From assembly GCF_003148885.1 (NCBI RefSeq), contig NZ_QGHD01000001.1, positions 1 to 64,000 on the forward strand: a stretch of 64,000 bases of DNA. The letters run 5' to 3'. The position numbers and the translations under genes were made by a program. The first letter of the stretch is position 1; the number at the start of each line of letters is the position of its first letter. The notes beneath the pieces were generated by a model that worked only from the letters and a program-made list of their open reading frames with translations, was not told the DNA's origin and ran no database searches. Source of the stretch: Hallerella porci (GTDB lineage: Bacteria; Fibrobacterota; Fibrobacteria; Fibrobacterales; Fibrobacteraceae). Below are positions 970 through 33,179 of this stretch, piece after piece.

Positions 970-2250
970 ATGCAAAAATTAAAATGGAATTTTCTTTGGG
1001 TTTGTGTCGCTATTATTTTTGCGGCATGTTCCGATTCGGAATCAAATCACATTACGAATAACTACAATAGCTCGGTGCTTTCAATTTATCATCTTGGAAC
1101 CTGTGATGAGAATAATGCAGGGAATATTGTTTTTGTTGAAAAAGATTCGGCGGACTATGTCTGCTTCAATAAAAAATGGGTTTTAATTCAAGACGATTCT
1201 CTTCATTCGGATACCTTGAAAATTCTAGATACATTGATTTTAACAAAGATGGATACGCTGAAAATTCGAGATACGTTAACTCTTTCCAAAACAGATACGT
1301 TGAAAATTCGAGATACGTTAACTCTTTCCAAAACAGATACGCTGACAGTCCGAGATACGTTGACTTTAACGAAAACAGATACACTAAAAATCCAAGATAC
1401 AATTATAGTGAATGTTCGGGATACGATTATCGCTTATGGAATTTCTCGCACAATTGATGATTTAGAAAAACTTGGCTCCTGCACTGCTTCAAATGAAAAT
1501 GAACTTGTCTTTAACGAAATGAATCAGGCATATTATCTGTGTCAAAATGGAAACTGGACTGTTTTAATTCTAGAACCGAAGCCGGATACAGTATCGACTG
1601 TGGAAGATTTGCCTTCATGCAATTCTTTGAGAACGGGTGATAGTGTTTATGTTGAGAATCAATCGGTAAAATATATTTGCACTGCCGGCCAATGGACGCT
1701 CGCGTTAGATACCTTGGTAGATTTGGGGCTGAGTGTAAAATGGGCTAGCGTCAATATTGGCGCCGCTCTCCCTGCAGATTATGGCAACTATTACTCGTGG
1801 GGAGAATCTGCACCTAAGGCAAAATATACCGCAGACAATAGCGAGATGAATAATGGAAATGGCGCTTTGAAAATTTCAGGCGCAAGAGATGCGGCTACCG
1901 CAAACTGGGGCGCCAAATATCGTATGCCGACAGGCGCTGAATTAAAAGAACTTGCTAACAATTGCTCCTTTACAGCGTCAACAAGGGTGAATAGTCAAGG
2001 AAAAAGTGTCCAAGGCTATAATGTAAAATGCAAAACAGATAATACGCTGTTTTTACCGCTTGCAGGTTATAAAGAATCTTCTTTAACAAAAAGCGTAGGT
2101 GAACTTGCATATTTTTGGGGATCAGATGCTATTTACAACGATGGCCTGCGACTTGTGTATGCGCTTTTTTTGTCCACGTCAAAACATTCAGCCGCAGCAA
2201 GTTACCTTTGCATAAACGGGTATTCGGTTCGTGCGGTTTCTGCGGATTAA
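970..2250 (+). CDS. FISUMP-domain lipoprotein with internal repeats
   Basis: This 426-residue surface lipoprotein has a signal peptide and lipobox (IFAAC, Cys20). Residues about 235-425 match the Fibrobacter major paralogous (FISUMP) domain: LSVKWASVNIGA, an NYYSWGES segment, KYRMPTGAELKEL and the C-terminal GYSVRAV. Upstream are three copies of a short module of the form C..N/G....V.....YlC..g.W, near residues 45-77, 158-190 and 203-235. Copies one and two are separated by a 14-residue Asp-Thr-Leu repeat. FISUMP proteins are abundant in this lineage and of unknown biochemical role; an adhesin or surface display role is an inference. No clear ribosome-binding site is seen before the ATG. It faces the GH5 gene convergently. 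Confidence 0.88.
   Translation: MQKLKWNFLWVCVAIIFAACSDSESNHITNNYNSSVLSIYHLGTCDENNAGNIVFVEKDSADYVCFNKKWVLIQDDSLHSDTLKILDTLILTKMDTLKIRDTLTLSKTDTLKIRDTLTLSKTDTLTVRDTLTLTKTDTLKIQDTIIVNVRDTIIAYGISRTIDDLEKLGSCTASNENELVFNEMNQAYYLCQNGNWTVLILEPKPDTVSTVEDLPSCNSLRTGDSVYVENQSVKYICTAGQWTLALDTLVDLGLSVKWASVNIGAALPADYGNYYSWGESAPKAKYTADNSEMNNGNGALKISGARDAATANWGAKYRMPTGAELKELANNCSFTASTRVNSQGKSVQGYNVKCKTDNTLFLPLAGYKESSLTKSVGELAYFWGSDAIYNDGLRLVYALFLSTSKHSAAASYLCINGYSVRAVSAD
1210..1401 (+). repeat. 42-bp tandem repeat coding for DTLKIRDTLTLSKT
   Basis: Four full units start at 1210, 1252, 1294 and 1336, with a partial fifth after 1378. Units two and three differ at a single base, while the first and last are more diverged. 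The array adds a Thr/Asp-rich extended spacer to the lipoprotein, probably a stalk between its modules. Confidence 0.85.
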
Positions 2251-2286
2251 AAAAGACCCGAGCAGAGCCCGAGTCTTTTGTTTTTG
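2248..2286. terminator. Bidirectional terminator between two convergent genes
   Basis: AAAAGAC.CG pairs with CG.GTCTTTT around a short loop with two mismatches, with an A tract before and T tract after. It sits between the FISUMP gene and the GH5 gene and could serve both. Confidence 0.65.
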
Positions 2287-2299
2287 CAAATTCAGTTTT

Positions 2300-4177
2300 T
2301 TACTTCAGCATGATTTTTTGTGAGAAGTCAATTCCTTGGCCTTTCACTTTGACGAAGTAAACGCCCTTGGCGGCTTGAATTTTGAATTCGTGAGTGCCTG
2401 CAGAAATCGGGCCGTTGTGAAGGGTAGAAACCTTGTGGCCGGTTGCATCAAAGAGAATTGCTTTGACATTTGTCGAACGGGTGAAAGACAAACTTAAAGC
2501 GTTTCCGTTGAGGTGCAAAGCTTTTGCATTCACTGCAGAGCGTTTGGAAATTCCGTTTGTATAATTTTCGTCGTAGACAATTTTGATTTCAGGAATTTCG
2601 ACTTCGGTCATGCCAAAGCCACGGCTAAAGGCATCGTATTTGTCTTCGTTAAAGTTGAAGAGCGTATCGGTTCCGGCAACGATATCGTCGAACAAAACGG
2701 TTCCCTTGTAATCCTTTGCGTAATTGGCGAGGACGATGGATACCGTTTTATTGCGGTTCGTCAAGGTCGAAATATCGTAGCTGCAAAGTTTCGATTCGCC
2801 TGCGGCCACTTTGCAACTGCCGTCGGTTTCGGTCCAAGTCCAGGCATCGGTAAGCTTAAAGATTAAATAAATATCCGCTTCGGTTTTGCCATTATTTTTG
2901 ACCTTCATCGTGAGGGTGTTAGCCTTTGACAAATCCAAACCGGCTTTATTTTGGTATTCGATTTGCGGATTGCCACCGCCAAAGGTCACTGCCATTTTGC
3001 CGTCGCCGCCAGCTTCTTCGATAACGACATCCTTGATTTTAATCGAAGCTTCTTCTGTGGCAGCTAAAGTTTTCATGGCCGCTAAAGCCGGGTCAATCGT
3101 GTAGCTGTAACCGCCAAATTTATCTTCGGTTTTGTCGCCGATGTACTGCCAAGCGAGTGCGCCTGCGTAGCCGCCGTCAAAAGCCTTGCGGTAGCATTCT
3201 TCGGTCGTGATTTCCGTTTTGGCTGCCATTGCCGCATTGTATGTATCGCCGGCCCAACCGCTTGCCGGGAATTCGCCGATAATCATCGGTTTCGAATCGT
3301 AACCGTAAGTGGTCGCCATTTGGGCTGCGGTATTTACAAACGGAGAAATTGCATCGGCCTGGTAATACGGGTAATAATGCGTTTGGAAAAAGTCCAAGGT
3401 GCCGTTTGCTTTTCCGCCTGCGGCAATGAGGGCGGCATCGTTCCAATTCTTTTGGAACTTAATATTGACGCTACCCGTAGAAACCAAAAGCGTGGGGTCA
3501 ACCGTGTGAATGGCCGAGGCGACTTCGTTCGTAAATTTCTGAATCTTCGCTAAAGCCATTTTTTGAGCCGTCCAGCCTTCGCATTCCGATGTCATGCCTT
3601 CGGGTTCATTAAAGACTTCCCAAGTCATAAGCGCTTTATGGTTTCCGATGGCTTTGACCACAGGAATCAAAACGTTATCGATGAAAGCTTTGGTGCCCGC
3701 TTCTTCAAAAAGAAGCTTATTCGCTTCGAAATCGACTTTGTCGCCGGTGTATAAACCCCACTGCTCAGGTTCCATCAAGTTGTGGCTGAATAAGCACATC
3801 GAAACCATCACGCCATATTCTTCGGCAATGTCCAATGCCTTTTTCATATTGGCGATTGTACTTGCCTTCGGGCCTGTGACCAAGTGCGTCGTTTCGTCGA
3901 TTGTCGGGCTTTGGCTCATATTGTTAAAAAGCCACCAGCGAATGGAGTTTCCGCCCGCTGCGCGTGTGCCTTCGACGGCTTTACGCCAAGCGTTTTCGTT
4001 GAGAGGCGATTCGCCGACGTCGGAATTATAATCGGACCAAGCGAGGTTTGTCCCGCTAAAGAAGATTTTTTTGCCGTTATACATTAAGTCTGTACCGGAA
4101 ACGGTAAGACCGGGGGCGGCGTAAGCAGCGGAACCTACGAGGGCAGCTGCTAAGAGAGTTTTAGACCACAATTTCAT
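2300..4177 (-). CDS. Secreted glycoside hydrolase family 5 enzyme, probably a mannanase
   Basis: This 625-residue exported glycanase has a signal peptide (cleavage after AYA, about residue 20) and a GH5 TIM barrel at about 25-370. The likely acid/base is Glu191 in WEVFNEPEG and the likely nucleophile Glu302 in MIIGEFPASGW. The segment GNSIRWWLF is common in bacterial GH5 mannanases, which is the reason for the substrate guess; a cellulase or other beta-mannan activity remains possible. Residues about 380-510 form a beta-sandwich, carbohydrate-binding-like region. The last 80 residues (GISKRSAVNAK to KIMLK) look like the C-terminal sorting domains of type IX-type secretion. A good AGGAG site precedes the ATG. 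Confidence 0.87.
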   Translation of the reverse strand: MKLWSKTLLAAALVGSAAYAAPGLTVSGTDLMYNGKKIFFSGTNLAWSDYNSDVGESPLNENAWRKAVEGTRAAGGNSIRWWLFNNMSQSPTIDETTHLVTGPKASTIANMKKALDIAEEYGVMVSMCLFSHNLMEPEQWGLYTGDKVDFEANKLLFEEAGTKAFIDNVLIPVVKAIGNHKALMTWEVFNEPEGMTSECEGWTAQKMALAKIQKFTNEVASAIHTVDPTLLVSTGSVNIKFQKNWNDAALIAAGGKANGTLDFFQTHYYPYYQADAISPFVNTAAQMATTYGYDSKPMIIGEFPASGWAGDTYNAAMAAKTEITTEECYRKAFDGGYAGALAWQYIGDKTEDKFGGYSYTIDPALAAMKTLAATEEASIKIKDVVIEEAGGDGKMAVTFGGGNPQIEYQNKAGLDLSKANTLTMKVKNNGKTEADIYLIFKLTDAWTWTETDGSCKVAAGESKLCSYDISTLTNRNKTVSIVLANYAKDYKGTVLFDDIVAGTDTLFNFNEDKYDAFSRGFGMTEVEIPEIKIVYDENYTNGISKRSAVNAKALHLNGNALSLSFTRSTNVKAILFDATGHKVSTLHNGPISAGTHEFKIQAAKGVYFVKVKGQGIDFSQKIMLK

Positions 4178-13560: not shown

Positions 13561-14748
13561 TTATCCTTGAACGAGTTTTTGGTAAAGTGAAAATTGTTTT
13601 TCAAAGCAATTTTTCCAACTGAATTTTGTGGCGTACGCTTCAGCGTTTTGCTTGAGCTCGGCTAAATTCATTTTGGAAATTTGAAGAATAGCATCGGCGA
13701 GAGCTTCGGGAGTGCGCGTTTGCAAAAGAACGCCCGCGCCCGATTTCGTCAAATGTTCTGCGGCAGCTCCTGTGTTGGCTGCGACGAGAGCGTTTCCGCA
13801 CGCTAAACTTTCGAGAATAGAAAGTCCAAAAGTTTCCCAGCCCGAAAGCGCAAGACCCAAATCGACGCTCGCATAATGGCGCGCCATTTCTGCTTCGCCG
13901 TGGATAAATCCTTCGTAGCGGATGTGCTTAAATTTTTGTGCAGCTTCTTGAACGCGCGGTAAATCGGGACCCGTTCCTGCGAAAAGAACTGCGGGCTCGC
14001 TTCCCAATTTTTCGACGAGAATGGGATACGCCTCTAAGAATAAACGCAGACCTTTTTCGTCACAAAAACGATGCGGAAAGAAAATGGTGAGGCGATTCGG
14101 ATCGCCGTCTTTTAATTCATCTACCAAATTTTCATCGCGGGCAGTTGGCGTAAACGTTTCTAAATCGACGCCGAGCGGAATCCAATCCAAGCGTTCTTTG
14201 GAAAATCCGAAACGATTCATGCGCTCTAAAACTTCGTCGCAACTCGCTTCGATTTTCGCGTAATTTTTGTATTCGAAACGCGCATAGGCAAAGGCTACGG
14301 ATTCGGTGATTTTTGCGATTCGCGGCATTTTCCATTTTTCAAAGAAGCGGCGCACATACGTCACCGGAAAATCGGCGTGCCAAAATCCGGTGAGAATCGG
14401 CGGCTTCGGCATGCCTTTGCACGCTTTGGAAACGGCCCTCGGAAGAATATACGGCGAACCGACTTCGACGATATCGGGATTGTATTTGGCGAGTGCGACT
14501 TTTAAATCGGCATTTTTCCACAAGAAGCGATATTCCCAATTTCCGGGGAAACGAAACGCTTTGGTGTGTTCAATAATGAGAGAATCCGAAATTTTTTCGG
14601 TAAAAGTTTTCCCGTCATTTTGCACAAAGACGAGAAGCGCATCGGCTTTATCTTTGTAAAATTTCATGCGTTCGAGATGATAACGGCGAACGCCGCCGCC
14701 CGAAGGACTCCAAAAATTATTGTAGTCTACGATGACTAAACGGCTCAT
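13561..14748 (-). CDS. GT4-family glycosyltransferase
   Basis: This 395-residue GT-B fold enzyme has an acceptor-side Gly loop (SPSGGGVRRYHLERM), the GT4 C-terminal signature with the donor-binding pair of Glu (ETFGLSILESLACG) and a FFPHRFCDEKGLRLF segment at the domain junction. It is predicted to use a nucleotide-sugar or related donor for an envelope glycan or glycolipid; specificity is unknown. It overlaps the DnaG-like gene by ATGA, so translation is probably coupled. Confidence 0.88.
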   Translation of the reverse strand: MSRLVIVDYNNFWSPSGGGVRRYHLERMKFYKDKADALLVFVQNDGKTFTEKISDSLIIEHTKAFRFPGNWEYRFLWKNADLKVALAKYNPDIVEVGSPYILPRAVSKACKGMPKPPILTGFWHADFPVTYVRRFFEKWKMPRIAKITESVAFAYARFEYKNYAKIEASCDEVLERMNRFGFSKERLDWIPLGVDLETFTPTARDENLVDELKDGDPNRLTIFFPHRFCDEKGLRLFLEAYPILVEKLGSEPAVLFAGTGPDLPRVQEAAQKFKHIRYEGFIHGEAEMARHYASVDLGLALSGWETFGLSILESLACGNALVAANTGAAAEHLTKSGAGVLLQTRTPEALADAILQISKMNLAELKQNAEAYATKFSWKNCFEKQFSLYQKLVQG

Positions 14749-16646
14749 GATTCTTTCTCTTTCATACGATACGATTTATCGGAGAAAAGTAAATTCGCTT
14801 CGTAGAGAATGGAACCGGAATTTTTGAGATTGACGGTGAGCCAAAGCGCGCCATCTTCTTTGCGTTCGAGCCAGAATGTCGCATCGGCGTCGCGCAAAAA
14901 TGGCCGCGGTCCAACGAGTTTATCGTCTTCTTTGAAAACGGAACCGCTGACAAAAACCGGAATGTCGAGCTCTTTGTAAAAGTCGAGAATCGCAGAAGAG
15001 CGACGCTCATTCAAATCGGGAATATCGCTCCGATCCGAAATGCGCAAATGGTCCACGCCATCGACGATTAAAATCAAATTTTGCTTTTCCGAAAGTTCGG
15101 TTTGCAATTCTTTGAGGAAAGCTTCGTATTGGAATGATTCAGTATCTTCCCAAATTTCTAAGCGATCGTTTTTGACGTAGCTGATAATTTTTTGTGTGGC
15201 GGTGAGAATTTGATGATTCACATCGTCGTCTTTATTTAACTTGTGCACATCGGTTTCCGAAACGCCCGAAAGCATTGAAATAAAGCGGTTGAGCGCTTCG
15301 CGCCGCGGACTATCTAATGCCGCATAAATGACTTTGACATCGGGATTTCCTTCGATTAAATCGAGTGCAAAAGACGAAAGCGCATGACTTTTGTAGCCGT
15401 AAGGTTCTGCCGAAAGGAAGTAATAGCCCGGTTGAATGCCGTCTAATGCGTGAGTTAACGCGGGGAAATTTTGTAAACGATAACCGACATCGGAATCGGG
15501 ATCGCGGCTGATCGCCGTGTTGAAATTTTCTTGAATGTCTTGGAGCAAAACCGTTTTGCGGTGCGTGCGCATCGTATCTTCTTCGGTATCGCGGATGCGT
15601 TCTAAGAAAGCCTCGGCGCCATCGGATTGGATTAACGTGTCAGCGGTTTCGCCCGCGGGAAGGATAATCGATTTGAATTTAATGCCTTCGGATTCGGCAA
15701 GTTCCAAGCATTTGCGAATGTGCAATTCTTGGTTGCGACGATTCGGTTCTTTGCGCAAAACGAGTGCGATGCTTTCTGCGCCGCAGGATTTGAGTTTGTA
15801 AAGATGGCTGCGGTTAAACGGTTGATACATCGTCGAAACGACGCCCGGAATTCCCGCTAAGTCTGCGGTCAAAACATCGAAGACGCCTTCGACGACAATC
15901 GGAGACTCAATATCTTGTTGAATGTTGAACGGAATGTCGAGAGGTCCTGACGCATACGAAATGTAAACGTCTTCAAGGGAATTCGCTGGCGTTGTCACAT
16001 CTAAAAGGCGCCCGTAAACGGAATGCAAAACGCCTTTGGAATTGCGCGCGGGAATCGTTAAACGCGGTTCGTGTGAAAGATCGAGATTGTCCAAATAAAA
16101 ACTGATTTCGTGGCGCTTTAAACCGCAGAGAAGTCCGTAACTATAAAAGGGTTCGGGGTCGCCGCTATAATAACCGATTCCGTAGAGGCGAGATTGTTCC
16201 AAAGTCCAACCGCGGGCTTTTAAAAATTCTGCGGTGGATTCGCTTTTGGTCGCGGCCCAGTTGCAGTAACGCACGAAGCTTTCTAAAACGCGGGATTTCG
16301 TGCCGCCGATTTCTTTGGCATGCGGAAAATTTTCATCGTCTTGAGATTTGATTTCGTCTTCGGATGCGCCCCAAAAATCCAAAGCTTCTTTGCGGGCTGC
16401 GTTTTCGTCTAAACCGTTAAAGCGGCTGCGCATAATGAATTCGACGAGGTCGCCGCTTGCTCCACAGCTCATGCAATGATAACGCCAATAGCCCAGGGAA
16501 TCGTAAAAGAATAATGTCGATTCTTCGGGAGCGTGGAAAGGACACTGCGAAAGCAGATTGCGTCCCCAACGGCTGAGCGAAACGCCGAGACGACGTGGGT
16601 GCGTTTTCACGCGGGAAAGTCCGATTTTGTCTTCTTCGATAAGCAT
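14745..16646 (-). CDS. DnaG-like zinc-finger/TOPRIM protein fused to a RecA/DnaB-like domain, motifs degenerate
   Basis: This 633-residue protein has a CHC2-type zinc finger (Cys35, His38, Cys58, Cys61) and a DnaG core-like region. The TOPRIM segment keeps Glu253 (VVEGVFDV) but reads LRKEPNRRN where DnaG has the metal-binding DxD. From about residue 390 follows a DnaB/RadA-type ATPase domain with a changed P-loop (AEPYGYKS, Gly before Lys replaced by Tyr, Lys419) and a Walker B-like LILIVDGVD. The order resembles T7 gp4 or Twinkle primase-helicases. With both active sites altered, it may be a structural or regulatory replication factor. The start is set at the ATG with AGGTGG ahead. It heads a five-gene run. 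Confidence 0.8.
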   Translation of the reverse strand: MLIEEDKIGLSRVKTHPRRLGVSLSRWGRNLLSQCPFHAPEESTLFFYDSLGYWRYHCMSCGASGDLVEFIMRSRFNGLDENAARKEALDFWGASEDEIKSQDDENFPHAKEIGGTKSRVLESFVRYCNWAATKSESTAEFLKARGWTLEQSRLYGIGYYSGDPEPFYSYGLLCGLKRHEISFYLDNLDLSHEPRLTIPARNSKGVLHSVYGRLLDVTTPANSLEDVYISYASGPLDIPFNIQQDIESPIVVEGVFDVLTADLAGIPGVVSTMYQPFNRSHLYKLKSCGAESIALVLRKEPNRRNQELHIRKCLELAESEGIKFKSIILPAGETADTLIQSDGAEAFLERIRDTEEDTMRTHRKTVLLQDIQENFNTAISRDPDSDVGYRLQNFPALTHALDGIQPGYYFLSAEPYGYKSHALSSFALDLIEGNPDVKVIYAALDSPRREALNRFISMLSGVSETDVHKLNKDDDVNHQILTATQKIISYVKNDRLEIWEDTESFQYEAFLKELQTELSEKQNLILIVDGVDHLRISDRSDIPDLNERRSSAILDFYKELDIPVFVSGSVFKEDDKLVGPRPFLRDADATFWLERKEDGALWLTVNLKNSGSILYEANLLFSDKSYRMKEKES

Positions 16647-16765
16647 AGACCACCTCAAAACTCAACTTAGAAATTTCCGGAATGCGGCACTTTTTGCGGG
16701 CGGGAAATCGCTGCGTTTTTTCGCGGAAAATTTTTAGGAAACGCGTGAAATGTTACATTTTTCGC

Positions 16766-28247: not shown

Positions 28248-29504
28248 TTACGGACGACGCTTTTGGGTAAAATGCACCGTTTCTTTGGCGCTAGATTCGC
28301 GGAAAGGCGAATTTTCGCGGTGCTTAATGACTTTACCGGTGTGCGTTTCGTGTCGGCCGAGAAGACCTGCGCGATCGGGGACAAAGAGGAAAAGAGTTTG
28401 GAAGGTCGCATTTCCCGGTTCCAAATCGAGCGGGATAATTTTCCGGAGCATAAATCCTTCGCGGCGGAAACGTTTAATTTCCATCGTGGCGACGCTTAAG
28501 TTGGAAGAATTTAAAAGAATGCGTTCTGGACAACTGGCGACGATTTCCGAGATGACATTTGCGGGAAGCGCTTTGCCGTCGGGCGGATCCAAGTAGATTG
28601 TCCATTTGCCGTCTTTGCCTTTGCCGTTAAAAAATTTCGGGAAAAAGTCTTTGTCAATTTCTGCGCGGATGAATTTGACATTCGGCGTTTTGCGGGAAAT
28701 GTTGCGCTTGTCCACAGCATAGGCTTCGGCAAAGGATGACGAAAGCGATTCGGCGATGTATCCTGTGCCTGCATAACATTCCAAAAATTTGTCGTTTTTT
28801 GTCGGGTGAATTGCGTCGCAAATGCGCTTTGGCAGAGCAATCCACGGTTCTTTTGCCGGTGGCGTCCAATCGACGATGTTGTAAAATTTTCCGGTATCCG
28901 CAATCGGGAGAAATTCGCTGCCCATACCTTTACGCAAATCGATTTGCGCTTCCGTCGGATGAGCGGGATCAAAAGCTTGCACCGGGCGAATTTGAATTTG
29001 ATAACACGAAAGAATTTCGTCAGCGTGTTCGTGCTCCAAGTAATTCAAAAACGTTTTGAATTCGCGGGTCGCTTCGGAAGAATGCAAAATGTTTTGAATG
29101 GCAAGACCGTAGCGTCCGTCGCCGGTTGCGCGGAACCAAATTTGCAAAATGGATTTGCGGAATTTGGCGAGGTGCGGCTTCCGAATTTGGGCATCGATAT
29201 CGAGGACGATTTTCGGCGGCTTTGCGCCTTTGAACGGGCCTTCTATCGAAAGAATGCGGCTCGTTTTATTGAGAGGCTGCGAACGGATGCGCCAATCGCA
29301 ATTTTCAAATTTCGTCGGAATGGAAAACCAACTTTGAATTTTTCCGGGGATTTTATTTTCTTTTGCCCAATTTTCTAAGTAGGCTTTTTTCCCCGCTAAA
29401 TCCGAAGGCACGGGTCCGAGAATTTTCTTTTCGGGTTCTTCTTTTTTGGTCGTGGGTTTGCGGCCCCAAGTGCCGCGGTTTTCCAATTTTTTTCTTTGCA
29501 TCAT
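28248..29504 (-). CDS. TrmA/RlmD-like SAM methyltransferase-fold protein lacking catalytic Cys and Glu
   Basis: This 418-residue protein has a basic N-terminus and a class I SAM fold with motif I LECYAGTGYIA (241-251) and the family's DPP turn (LDPPDG, 306-310). Where m5U methyltransferases have the SCNP nucleophile it reads NSSN (Ser334), and where they have the HVE base Glu it reads FQT (Gln369). The C-terminal tail is basic. The general fold is clear, but the usual 5-methyluridine chemistry should not work. It could methylate another atom or only bind RNA. It follows the PrimPol-like gene by 36 bp. Confidence 0.78.
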   Translation of the reverse strand: MMQRKKLENRGTWGRKPTTKKEEPEKKILGPVPSDLAGKKAYLENWAKENKIPGKIQSWFSIPTKFENCDWRIRSQPLNKTSRILSIEGPFKGAKPPKIVLDIDAQIRKPHLAKFRKSILQIWFRATGDGRYGLAIQNILHSSEATREFKTFLNYLEHEHADEILSCYQIQIRPVQAFDPAHPTEAQIDLRKGMGSEFLPIADTGKFYNIVDWTPPAKEPWIALPKRICDAIHPTKNDKFLECYAGTGYIAESLSSSFAEAYAVDKRNISRKTPNVKFIRAEIDKDFFPKFFNGKGKDGKWTIYLDPPDGKALPANVISEIVASCPERILLNSSNLSVATMEIKRFRREGFMLRKIIPLDLEPGNATFQTLFLFVPDRAGLLGRHETHTGKVIKHRENSPFRESSAKETVHFTQKRRP

Positions 29505-29540: not shown

Positions 29541-31289
29541 TTAAAAAATAAATCGCGGATAACGCCAGTTGCAATCGGCAGCGGGAAGCGCTGGGAAATT
29601 GCGGAATGAGCCGCGGAGGTGGAACATATTCGGGCGACTGTCAATCGGCAAAAGGGAAATGACCGAATCGGCGTGACTTTCGAATTCCGGAAATTCTTTG
29701 GAGTTCGCTGAAACGACGACCGCAGAACCGGTGAGCGCAATTAACGTATCGGTCAAAAGCAAAAGCGATTGCTCGGACGGAATATTATTTCGAATCGCTT
29801 TCGGGTTGTGCAAAATTGCAGAAATCGAATCGATGATAATGACTCCGTAATCGTGATCTTCGAGTTGCTTTGCTCCTTTGATACGCTTTGCGATATACTG
29901 CGCCATTTCAAGTGGCGAAAGCGCGAGTCCGCGCAAATTCAAAACGCCGATTTCGGGAACGGCTGCGGAAAGTCCGCGGGAATTGGCGACGGCGAATAAG
30001 CGATTTAAAAGGGCGGAACGCGAACTGTCAAAGTTCACAAAAAGCACATCGGTTTTATGCGTTGTTTGCCCGAGCCAATCTTCGCCATGCGAAAGTGAAA
30101 GCGCTAAATCCATTAACGCAAAAGATTTGCCGGTTTTTGCGGGCGCCGTGAAAAGCATCAGTTCACCCGCTTGCAGCACATTGTCGATGAATAAGCGGTC
30201 TTTTTTCGGAGCGTCATCGTTATCGCTTGCAAGTTCGATAAGAGGCTTTCCGTCAAGGCAGAATTCTACCCAAGTTTTCCAATCTTCAAAAGATTTTGCG
30301 CCTTGTTCTAAGCCGATAAGATATTGCTGTTTTCCGTTGCGGAGAACGCCCGGAAGCCGAACCATCTGCGAAGGATTGGGTCCGTTAGATTCAACATCAA
30401 ATCCTTGATCGGCGAGAGTTTTGAAAAGATATTCGACGCGTTCGTCGTATTCTTCGCGGGTTTGCGCGTTGATTTTAATCCACGCTTGCACCGAGTTTGC
30501 GCCTGTGCTTACGAGAGCTGCGCAAGGAAGATTTAACGCTTTGTAATAAGCGAGTTGTTTCGCTAAGCTGATTTTCGGATTATCGACGACAGCATAACGG
30601 AAACGATAAGATTCATTTTCGCCTTCGGGACCATTTACCGCATTGATGGAAACAAGTGCGCCGTCGGGACCGTCCAAAGACTTCATCGTTTTTTTGATGC
30701 TATCGGCTCGCGCTAAAATGCCCGCGACTTGTTCCGTCGTCGCATCCGGCGTATTCGACATTTTGTATTCGATAAATTCTTCGGGCTTGAACAACGCTTT
30801 GAGCAGTTTCAAAAAGTCCGAACGCCAATCGGGAGTGGGCCACGGAATGTTGAGCGCTTCGGGATCGATGCGGTGATTTTGTAAAAGTTCAAGCGCTTTT
30901 GCGTCAAGTCCCATCGCGAGAACTTGTTCTAAGGCGAGTGCTCCCGTGATAATCGGTTGCCCGGCGATACTTTGTGCGGGCATCGCAGGAATTGCGGGCA
31001 TGGCCTGCGTTGCGGGTTGCTGTGCTGCGGGTGCTTCTTCGGCGATTGCGGCGGTTTCCCGTTCGCGTGTCCGTTTATCGGCTGCGTAAGCGCGGCGAAT
31101 AATCGCATCGGATTCGTCTTCGGATAAGCCTTCTTCTTTGGCGTGATCGCCGAGTTGGAAGGTCGCTTCCATGTAAGTCATTCCAATTTTTTCGGCCGCC
31201 TCGGCAGCGCGGAAAAGTCCGCCTTTGAGTTCTTCGGGCGAATGCTTCTTGGAGAGGAATAGATTGATTATCTGACGCGGTGATTCCAT
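29541..31289 (-). CDS. PrimPol-like/AAA_25 (RepA-type) ATPase with degenerate primase motifs
   Basis: This 582-residue protein has an N-terminal helical region, an Ala/Pro linker (about 82-112), a PrimPol-like region (about 225-345) and a RecA-like AAA_25 ATPase (about 365-560). The ATPase keeps Walker A (APAKTGKS, Lys388) and Walker B (IIIDS, Asp487). The primase part has the family frame (YRFRYAVVDN, ALVSTGANSVQAWIKI, NPSQMVRLPGVLRNGKQQYL), but the expected SGGKSLHA His is Gln268 and the first acidic motif is VVDN. Relatives in plasmids and phages start replication. No other mobile-element gene is adjacent, so this looks like a domesticated form. Confidence 0.8.
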   Translation of the reverse strand: MESPRQIINLFLSKKHSPEELKGGLFRAAEAAEKIGMTYMEATFQLGDHAKEEGLSEDESDAIIRRAYAADKRTRERETAAIAEEAPAAQQPATQAMPAIPAMPAQSIAGQPIITGALALEQVLAMGLDAKALELLQNHRIDPEALNIPWPTPDWRSDFLKLLKALFKPEEFIEYKMSNTPDATTEQVAGILARADSIKKTMKSLDGPDGALVSINAVNGPEGENESYRFRYAVVDNPKISLAKQLAYYKALNLPCAALVSTGANSVQAWIKINAQTREEYDERVEYLFKTLADQGFDVESNGPNPSQMVRLPGVLRNGKQQYLIGLEQGAKSFEDWKTWVEFCLDGKPLIELASDNDDAPKKDRLFIDNVLQAGELMLFTAPAKTGKSFALMDLALSLSHGEDWLGQTTHKTDVLFVNFDSSRSALLNRLFAVANSRGLSAAVPEIGVLNLRGLALSPLEMAQYIAKRIKGAKQLEDHDYGVIIIDSISAILHNPKAIRNNIPSEQSLLLLTDTLIALTGSAVVVSANSKEFPEFESHADSVISLLPIDSRPNMFHLRGSFRNFPALPAADCNWRYPRFIF

Positions 31290-31415
31290 AAAAAAGAAAA
31301 TAGAATTTTATAAAGCATTTTGTTTGAAGAAGAAAAATACAAGCCCGCTATCGGCGTGCAAGTCGCGCTTAATTTTTTATTAAAAGCCTCACAAGTGGTG
31401 AAAAAATTTCTAAAT

Positions 31416-33179
31416 ATGGCGCCTATGAATCCTGAAGGCGCAATTATTGTTCAAAGCAACTTGGAAATCCTTGTTGAAGTTCACAATCCTCATTACATTG
31501 AAGCGCGCGATGCAATCGCTCCGTTCACAGAACTTGTCAAAAGTCCAGAACATTTACACACATATCGCATTTCGCATTTGTCGCTTTGGAATGCTGCTTC
31601 TACAGGGCTTTCGGCCGATGATGTTATTCAGCGCTTAGAAAATCAAAGCAAGTATCCGTTGCCCGAATCGGTCGTGACCGAAATTCAAGAATACATGAGC
31701 CGCTACGGAATGCTTCGGCTCGTGAAAAGAGAAAAAGGACTTTGCTTAGAAGCGACGGATGTTGCACTTTTCAAAGAAGTTTGCAAACTGCCGAATGTCG
31801 GCGATTGCTTAATCGAATTCGAAGGCGAAGATAAAGTTTACGTCGATCCGAATAAACGTGGCATTTTGAAAATGTCGCTCACGTTGAACGGTTTCCCCGT
31901 CGAAGATATTGCGGGCTATGTTTCTGGCGATCCGCTGCAAATTGAATTGCGCAAAGAAACGCTCAGCGGAAAAGAACTCAAGCTCCGCGATTATCAGCGG
32001 GAAGCGGCGGAAATTTTCTACGCATCGGGCTCGGAAAAAGGCGGCTCGGGCGTTATCGTTTTGCCTTGCGGTTCGGGAAAAACGGTGATTGGAATGGCGA
32101 CGATGGCGCTCATGAAAACGCGCACTCTCATTTTAACGCCGAACATTTCGTCTGCGCGTCAATGGATTCGTGAAATCCTCGACAAGACGACTTTGACAGC
32201 AGACCAAGTCCGCGAATATTCGGGCGATGTCAAAGAAATCGGTCCGGTGACCGTTGCGACTTATCAAATTTTAACGCAGCGGAAACGCACCAAAAAATCC
32301 GAAGAAGAATCGGAAACTTCGGAAGAAACCGAAGAAAAGAAATCCGAAGATAAAGCGCTCGTCAACTTCCCGCTTTTCAGCGAGCACAAATGGGGCTTAA
32401 TGATTTACGACGAAGTGCATTTGCTCCCTGCGCCCGTGTTCCGCTTTAGCGCCGAAATGCAAGCGACTCGTCGTCTCGGCCTTACAGCAACTCTCGTCCG
32501 CGAAGACGGCAAAGAAACCGAAGTTTTCTCGCTCATCGGTCCGAAAAAATTTGACTTGCCTTGGAAGGTTTTGGAATCGCAAGGTTGGATTGCAACCGCT
32601 GACTGCGCAGAAATTCGCGTGGCGATGAATCCCGAATTGAAAATGAAATATGCGTTAGCGCCGACCCGCGAAAAAATTAACATCGCAAGTATGAATCCGC
32701 AGAAAGACGATGTGGTAGAAAGTCTCATCGCCAAATACAATGAACCCGAAGATCGCATTCTCATCATCGGGCAATACATTGAACAGCTGAATACGCTTTC
32801 GGAAAAACTCGGCATTCCTCTCATCACCGGAAAAACGCCGAACAAAGAACGCGATAAACTTTACGCCGCTTTCCGCAACGGCAGCTTGCGCAATCTCATG
32901 GTTTCGAAAGTGGGAAACTTCGCCATCGACTTGCCGGATGCGAGCATTCTCATTCAGATTTCGGGAACATTTGGCAGCCGCCAAGAAGAAGCGCAGCGTC
33001 TTGGACGCGTTCTTCGCCCGAAAGAAGACGGACGCCCGGCGCATTTCTTTTCGTTAGTGACGAAGGATTCGAAGGAACAAGAATTTTCGATGAATCGTCA
33101 ACTCTTTTTAACCGAGCAAGGCTACGCTTACAAAATCATGAATTATGTGGGCGGTGAAATTGTCGCTGCGGGCAAGTAA
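31416..33179 (+). CDS. Bacterial XPB-type DEAD/DEAH helicase
   Basis: This 587-residue superfamily 2 helicase is close to bacterial XPB/ERCC3. The N-terminal domain has the family's IIVQSN, SPEHLHTYRI and LSLWNAAS segments. Walker A is PCGSGKT (217-223), the box is DEVH (332-335) and the XPB-specific RED motif is present (TLVREDG, 362-364). A highly acidic insert (Glu/Lys/Ser, about 289-313) is unusual. It probably unwinds damaged DNA; its common partner Bax1 is not adjacent. The start is set at the ATG before the conserved region; a TTG at 31320 is also in frame. It is divergent from the PrimPol-like gene. Confidence 0.9.
   Translation: MAPMNPEGAIIVQSNLEILVEVHNPHYIEARDAIAPFTELVKSPEHLHTYRISHLSLWNAASTGLSADDVIQRLENQSKYPLPESVVTEIQEYMSRYGMLRLVKREKGLCLEATDVALFKEVCKLPNVGDCLIEFEGEDKVYVDPNKRGILKMSLTLNGFPVEDIAGYVSGDPLQIELRKETLSGKELKLRDYQREAAEIFYASGSEKGGSGVIVLPCGSGKTVIGMATMALMKTRTLILTPNISSARQWIREILDKTTLTADQVREYSGDVKEIGPVTVATYQILTQRKRTKKSEEESETSEETEEKKSEDKALVNFPLFSEHKWGLMIYDEVHLLPAPVFRFSAEMQATRRLGLTATLVREDGKETEVFSLIGPKKFDLPWKVLESQGWIATADCAEIRVAMNPELKMKYALAPTREKINIASMNPQKDDVVESLIAKYNEPEDRILIIGQYIEQLNTLSEKLGIPLITGKTPNKERDKLYAAFRNGSLRNLMVSKVGNFAIDLPDASILIQISGTFGSRQEEAQRLGRVLRPKEDGRPAHFFSLVTKDSKEQEFSMNRQLFLTEQGYAYKIMNYVGGEIVAAGK

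Follow-up and report, generated by a model that had tools for sequence, protein, structure and literature searches.

Our analysis shows that a 582-aa protein encoded in a 64,000-nucleotide stretch of Hallerella porci DNA (hereafter the window) descends from a prophage InversePrim-type replication protein. Its gene has been domesticated: it is chromosomal, single-copy, syntenic and vertically inherited. The AEP domain was most likely repurposed rather than left to decay. We propose, at a probability of about one in two, that the domesticated InversePrim now serves as a noncatalytic accessory factor that binds nucleotide or ssDNA and is switched by ATP. The gene, its domains and the neighboring genes discussed below are listed in Table 1; we found no literature on a Fibrobacter homologue of the protein.

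Table 1. Gene, domains, motifs and neighboring genes, with positions in the window
Feature	Residues	Positions	Strand	Remarks
Whole gene, degenerate InversePrim-derived protein		29541-31289	(-)	582 aa, ATG start
Helical N-domain	1-82	31044-31289	(-)	Four-helix prediction; sits where phages have PriCT_2
AEP (PrimPol) domain	140-346	30252-30872	(-)	AlphaFold, Foldseek
Motif I (D-N-P)	236-238	30576-30584	(-)	68-row alignment
Motif II (GANSVQAW), Gln268 and Trp270	263-270	30480-30503	(-)	68-row alignment
Motif-III acid position, Glu in window	300	30390-30392	(-)	68-row alignment
RecA-like ATPase domain	366-582	29544-30194	(-)	Pfam AAA_25 and predicted structure
Walker A (APAKTGKS), Lys388/Ser389	382-389	30123-30146	(-)	68-row alignment
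Motif-1a catalytic Glu position, Asp in window	421	30027-30029	(-)	Alignment; role from PMC8965321
Walker B (VIIID), Asp487	483-487	29829-29843	(-)	68-row alignment
Motif-3 His position, Asn in window	529	29703-29705	(-)	Alignment; role from PMC8965321
DnaG-like/DnaB-like primase-ATPase fusion		14745-16658	(-)	12.9 kb from the 582-aa gene, same conserved block
Degenerate RlmD/TrmA-like methyltransferase		28248-29504	(-)	36 bp downstream; rumA E = 2.3e-5, far below cut-off
Cellular-type XPB repair helicase		31320-33179	(+)	NCBIfam NF045503, 806 bits, above cut-off

The open reading frame, the start and length of which are kept among orthologs, was confirmed, as were two sequence features singled out in the initial annotation: Gln268 within TGANSVQAW, and VVDN, which occupies residues 234-237. 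A helical N-domain is followed by the AEP and then by a RepA/AAA_25 RecA-like ATPase. AAA_25 was the only Pfam match to the protein (E = 5.6e-17) and was present in 25/25 family members checked. PHROG 2597 (phrog_2597, "DNA primase") matched residues 158-493 at E = 2.5e-67, thus spanning both the AEP and the ATPase. Searching the PDB by sequence gave no relatives. AlphaFold modeled the AEP region, residues 138-362, with a pLDDT of 86.8 and a pTM of 0.84, and Foldseek aligned it with S-2L PrimPol and RepB' (E about 1e-6) and more weakly with CAPP (8.5e-3); none of the three was matched by the protein at the sequence level. A PriCT identity for the N-domain is unsupported, since no PriCT was detected among 25 family members and hhalign against the phage PriCT_2 N-domains gave a probability of 0.9%, no detectable relation. 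A promoter and terminator scan stayed at chance level. An anti-phage defense role is likewise unsupported, as no known defense family in PADLOC-DB was matched beyond a weak P-loop similarity (mad8, E = 0.0035).

The phage ancestry is evident from several comparisons. When the AEP and ATPase bodies of the Fibrobacterales family were aligned with those of the phage members by hhalign, the probability was 100% (E = 1.5e-63). By tblastn, 49 phage records were matched at less than 60% identity; of these, the 30 listed lie at 28.6-36.8%, come mostly from Streptococcus, Faecalibacterium, Paenibacillus and Bacillus phages and, where annotated, are mainly called primase or replicative helicase. These relatives have a PriCT_2-AEP-AAA_25 architecture. 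The PriCT-AEP-RepA-type arrangement was named InversePrim, within the PrimPol-PV1 supergroup, by Kazlauskas et al. 2018 (PMC5862659); all of the InversePrim loci analyzed there were in prophages, and the bacterial AEPs of the supergroup were described as almost confined to mobile elements. From the matching architecture, the His motif and the Firmicutes-phage hosts, we infer that PHROG 2597 corresponds to InversePrim. In our tree, the Fibrobacterales family is monophyletic relative to the phage and mobile copies (support 100/99). Scans of viral contigs and tblastn searches of phages and plasmids recovered copies that, among those inspected (residues were read for these and not for every match), all have intact motifs, so that no phage relative with the residues of the family was seen in this set. 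One Fibrobacter metagenome-assembled genome contains an intact 746-aa phage-type InversePrim with SGGKSLHA and ESD (locus L150, G107:C64, positions 1482-3713). The contig is 5 kb long and carries an SSL2 helicase gene upstream of this copy and a RusA-like gene downstream of it, and contamination of the assembly is 8%; for these reasons we rejected the copy as an evolutionary intermediate and take it to be probably phage.

Domestication is supported by the distribution and setting of the gene. One copy occurs in almost all Fibrobacteraceae genomes (about 95) and in the sister family f2. Among 168 genomes searched across the phylum, an ATPase-only match was all that appeared outside these two families, and when 84,980 species genomes were scanned by pattern, Fibrobacterales alone were recovered, including Fibrobacter intestinalis ATCC 43854 (contig NZ_FUWU01000036.1) from the window's genus. 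The order SBP-PQQ-RR-HK-LysM-MTase-582-aa gene (RR, response regulator; HK, histidine kinase) is conserved across genera, and base composition and GC3 resemble those of the neighbors. Omega over the whole gene is about 0.03-0.08, indicating purifying selection. The view that the present copy is a prophage or plasmid gene was rejected on the basis of the conserved synteny, the lack of any tRNA in the 64-kb window and the neighbor-like GC3. Thus the domestication suggested initially holds, as does the statement that no phage or plasmid genes are adjacent: the neighbors are housekeeping genes in conserved order, with no prophage boundary found around the gene. Genera g6 and g9 do not have the gene. 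A DnaG tree groups the two, with support, as a clade nested inside Fibrobacteraceae, for which a single loss of the gene is the simplest explanation. Two ATPase-only relatives, open frames of 361-374 aa in genera g11 and g7 (L029, G015:C49; L028, G011:C24), lack an AEP but retain both the motif-1a Glu and a loop resembling ARDADSL.

The initial annotation held that ATPase function had been kept while the primase part decayed. The pattern of constraint does not support this. Across 15 genus-spread Fibrobacteraceae sequences, mean pairwise identity is 74.0% in the AEP core vs. 56.3% in the ATPase, whereas among the phage or mobile relatives, a small set of 7 sequences, the order is reversed (67.2% vs. 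75.2%). Column entropy is likewise lower in the AEP core than in the ATPase (0.62 vs. 0.82 bits, p = 2e-4). Fifteen sites are invariant within each group and differ between the family and the phages, and 4 of these 15 cluster around motif II: E253N, K265N, H268Q and I270W. For close pairs from genus g2, constraint on the ATPase equals or exceeds that on the AEP (omega 0.006-0.044); relaxation of the ATPase is therefore a between-genus pattern. Because the AEP core is the better conserved across genera, it is not a decaying remnant and has likely been repurposed.

The ATPase domain itself is only partly intact. The RepA-type catalytic set comprises the Walker A Lys, the motif-1a Glu, the Walker B Asp, the motif-3 His and an Arg finger (PMC8965321). 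In the 68-row family alignment from which all of our residue counts are taken, Lys388/Ser389 and Asp487 are invariant (68/68), which bears out the initial annotation as far as the Walker motifs are concerned. Beyond them, its description of an intact ATPase does not stand. The motif-1a position is Glu in 61 rows, Asp in 6 (including Asp421 of the window) and Asn in 1, that of F. intestinalis. The motif-3 His is replaced in every member, by Asn in 64/68 including Asn529 of the window. The phage loop that follows it, HHHSKGxQGGKxSMDRASGSGVFARDPDA, has shrunk to some 10 residues, and the family also lacks the long insertion and C-terminal tail found in the phage proteins. Arg563, a putative Arg finger, is largely kept. 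ATP binding is thus likely and ATP hydrolysis uncertain, to judge from these residues. With no motif-3 His, DNA-proximal loop or C-terminal tail, the protein has probably lost its helicase character too.

These data bear on the model favored by the earlier reader, a protein like human Twinkle in which the ATPase or helicase works and the primase domain is decayed or a structural leftover. The invariant Walker residues, the motif-1a Glu in most rows, the retention of Arg563 and the very low ATPase omega inside g2 are in its favor, and metazoan Twinkle provides a precedent, having lost its primase and kept its helicase (PMC6299598). Against it stand the AEP core, which from genus to genus is better conserved than the ATPase and has a signature that is fixed rather than drifting, the universal loss of the motif-3 His and loop, and the loss of the motif-1a Glu in the window species and in F. 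intestinalis. We consider it unlikely.

The initial annotation also drew attention to a second degenerate primase-ATPase fusion in the window, and the two fusions indeed prove to be a family-wide feature. In the DnaG-like protein the CHC2 zinc ligands are kept and Walker A is degenerate, and the Toprim DxD is missing from every family member aligned; a true DnaG is encoded elsewhere (G000:C7). Its gene occurs in 97 Fibrobacteraceae genomes, is absent from g6, g9 and family f2, and in most genera lies 12.7-13.0 kb from the 582-aa gene. The two proteins could act together on ssDNA as a paired, noncatalytic primosome-like complex. Consistent with this, the same Fibrobacteraceae genomes carry one copy of each gene, at near-constant spacing in most genera, and the nested g6+g9 clade has neither. 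But family f2 has the 582-aa gene without its would-be partner, the joint loss may have been a single event, and the two genes do not share an operon, all of which makes such a complex quite unlikely. We give nearly the same low probability to its broader form, a "pseudo-primosome" in which dead AEP-type and DnaG-type fusions of independent origin would work together as scaffolds that sense ssDNA or nucleotides while the chromosome is replicated or repaired.

Two closer neighbors deserve mention. The adjacency of the methyltransferase gene to the 582-aa gene is conserved, and the two are probably cotranscribed. No methyltransferase family member aligned has a catalytic Cys at the SCNP-like position, and outside the window's genus erosion has also reached the DPP and SAM-loop motifs. 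The methyltransferase is therefore a third pseudoenzyme of the block, one that is retained even where the 582-aa gene was lost. On the other side, both the window and F. intestinalis have the divergent XPB gene directly beside the 582-aa gene; elsewhere in the window's genus it lies one gene (MATE) further off, in the opposite orientation. Phage copies of the primase gene adjoin an SSL2 helicase. Capture of XPB and the 582-aa gene as one phage module was nevertheless rejected, because XPB is of cellular type and only weakly similar to phage SSL2, and because the adjacency is confined to genus g1.

At the AEP active site, mobile-element relatives read ESD at motif I and SG(G/K)KS(L/V/I)HA at motif II. 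At motif I, the phage E-S/C-D corresponds mostly to D-N/S-P in the family. The proposal that VVDN replaces the first acidic motif was correct in that the motif is altered, but the first acid is kept, the phage Glu having become Asp236 (rarely Glu). It is the second acid, the phage Asp, that is absent, in 68/68 rows, with Pro238 in 65 of them. Gln268, Ala269 and Trp270 are invariant (68/68), and the phage and mobile relatives examined all have His at 268. The motif-III acid position is Asp in 58 rows, Glu in 4, Asn in 4 and other residues in 2, and is Asn or Ser in several genera. The motif-IV Arg, aligned at R311, is kept in Fibrobacteraceae, as is R317, and is lost in family f2.

How much weight these substitutions carry differs among them. 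PolpTN2, an active primase-polymerase, has Gln in motif II, as do the RepB'-like and PrimQH families (PMC5862659). Since motif-II Gln occurs in active AEPs, the His-to-Gln change is no proof by itself that priming was lost, and on this point the initial annotation is not supported. Its broader statement that priming was lost is very probably right, on the stronger evidence of motif I, where the second acid is missing, and of motif III, where the acid varies. With the metal triad broken and PriCT gone, priming and polymerizing activity has likely disappeared; the remaining first motif-I acid and, in most members, motif-III acid may still bind metal. An active but altered AEP would instead prime or polymerize with Gln268 as in PolpTN2 and RepB', its two remaining acids binding metal. 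Such an enzyme would fit the strong constraint on the core and the retention of Asp236, mostly of Asp300 and, in Fibrobacteraceae, of Arg311, the motif-IV Arg that is essential in PolpTN2. Yet the second motif-I acid is never present, several genera have Asn or Ser at motif III, PriCT is absent and f2 also does without Arg311; moreover, doubly mutating motif I inactivates PolpTN2 (PMC5862659). An active enzyme is thus very unlikely. The same low standing applies to a RecA-paralog-like mediator, in which a RecA fold with an incomplete active site would assist RecA or cap filaments: Foldseek matched the full model best to RAD51-family proteins, RAD51 paralogs among them, and XPB adjoins in some g1 genomes, but RAD51-type matches are generic for the RecA fold (hundreds were found), XPB does not keep this position in other genera and the conserved AEP core would go unexplained.

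We therefore favor the noncatalytic accessory factor. The origin, distribution, residue losses and constraint pattern behind it were computed, and from these we infer the loss of catalysis, the ligand, the oligomerization and the site of action. A phage protein would have been captured before the Fibrobacterales radiation and inherited vertically since. It would have kept a nucleotide-pocket-like AEP core with the fixed signature N253, N265, Q268 and W270, together with a RecA-like domain still able to bind ATP, binding of which would control the protein. The factor, probably oligomeric, may hold a nucleotide or an ssDNA end in the former primase pocket at replication or repair intermediates, acting without priming and without unwinding. 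That the g6+g9 clade lives without the gene counts against this model. Furthermore, DciA is present, and there is thus no obvious replication gap for the 582-aa gene to fill. The presence of DciA, with only partial IstB/DnaC family matches, also weakens replacement of the helicase loader as a possible role.

These findings have several implications. First, an order-wide, chromosomally inherited and apparently primase-dead InversePrim member is an exception to the mobile-element confinement described for its supergroup (PMC5862659), and it offers an example of a phage replication protein turned into a host core gene. Second, the inverted constraint predicts a new ligand for the former nucleotide pocket. 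Finally, motif-II Gln should not count as proof of lost priming in other AEPs.

It is useful to contrast the family with systems that resemble it. InversePrim proteins (PHROG 2597, e.g., of Faecalibacterium phage FP_Lugh and the Streptococcus Javan phages) likewise consist of a helical domain, an AEP and a RepA-type RecA-like domain. Unlike them, the Fibrobacterales gene is chromosomal and free of a prophage, and its product differs by lacking PriCT and the second motif-I acid, by the His-to-Gln change and variable motif III, and by the absence of the motif-3 His with its loop, the long insertion and the C-terminal tail. The fold of residues 138-362 is common to RSF1010 RepB', cyanophage S-2L PrimPol and CAPP, which are active enzymes with their acids intact; RepB'-like enzymes also share the motif-II Gln of the family. 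With the RSF1010 RepA and phage F13 GP46 helicases the protein has the Walker A Lys, the Walker B Asp and the putative Arg finger in common, but not the motif-1a Glu (Asp in the window species), the motif-3 His (Asn) or the DNA-proximal loop (deleted). Metazoan Twinkle is likewise a domesticated, phage-derived primase-helicase fusion that has lost its primase. Its primase was of the Toprim type rather than an AEP, however, and Twinkle keeps helicase activity, whereas in Fibrobacterales it is the dead primase domain that is the better conserved part.
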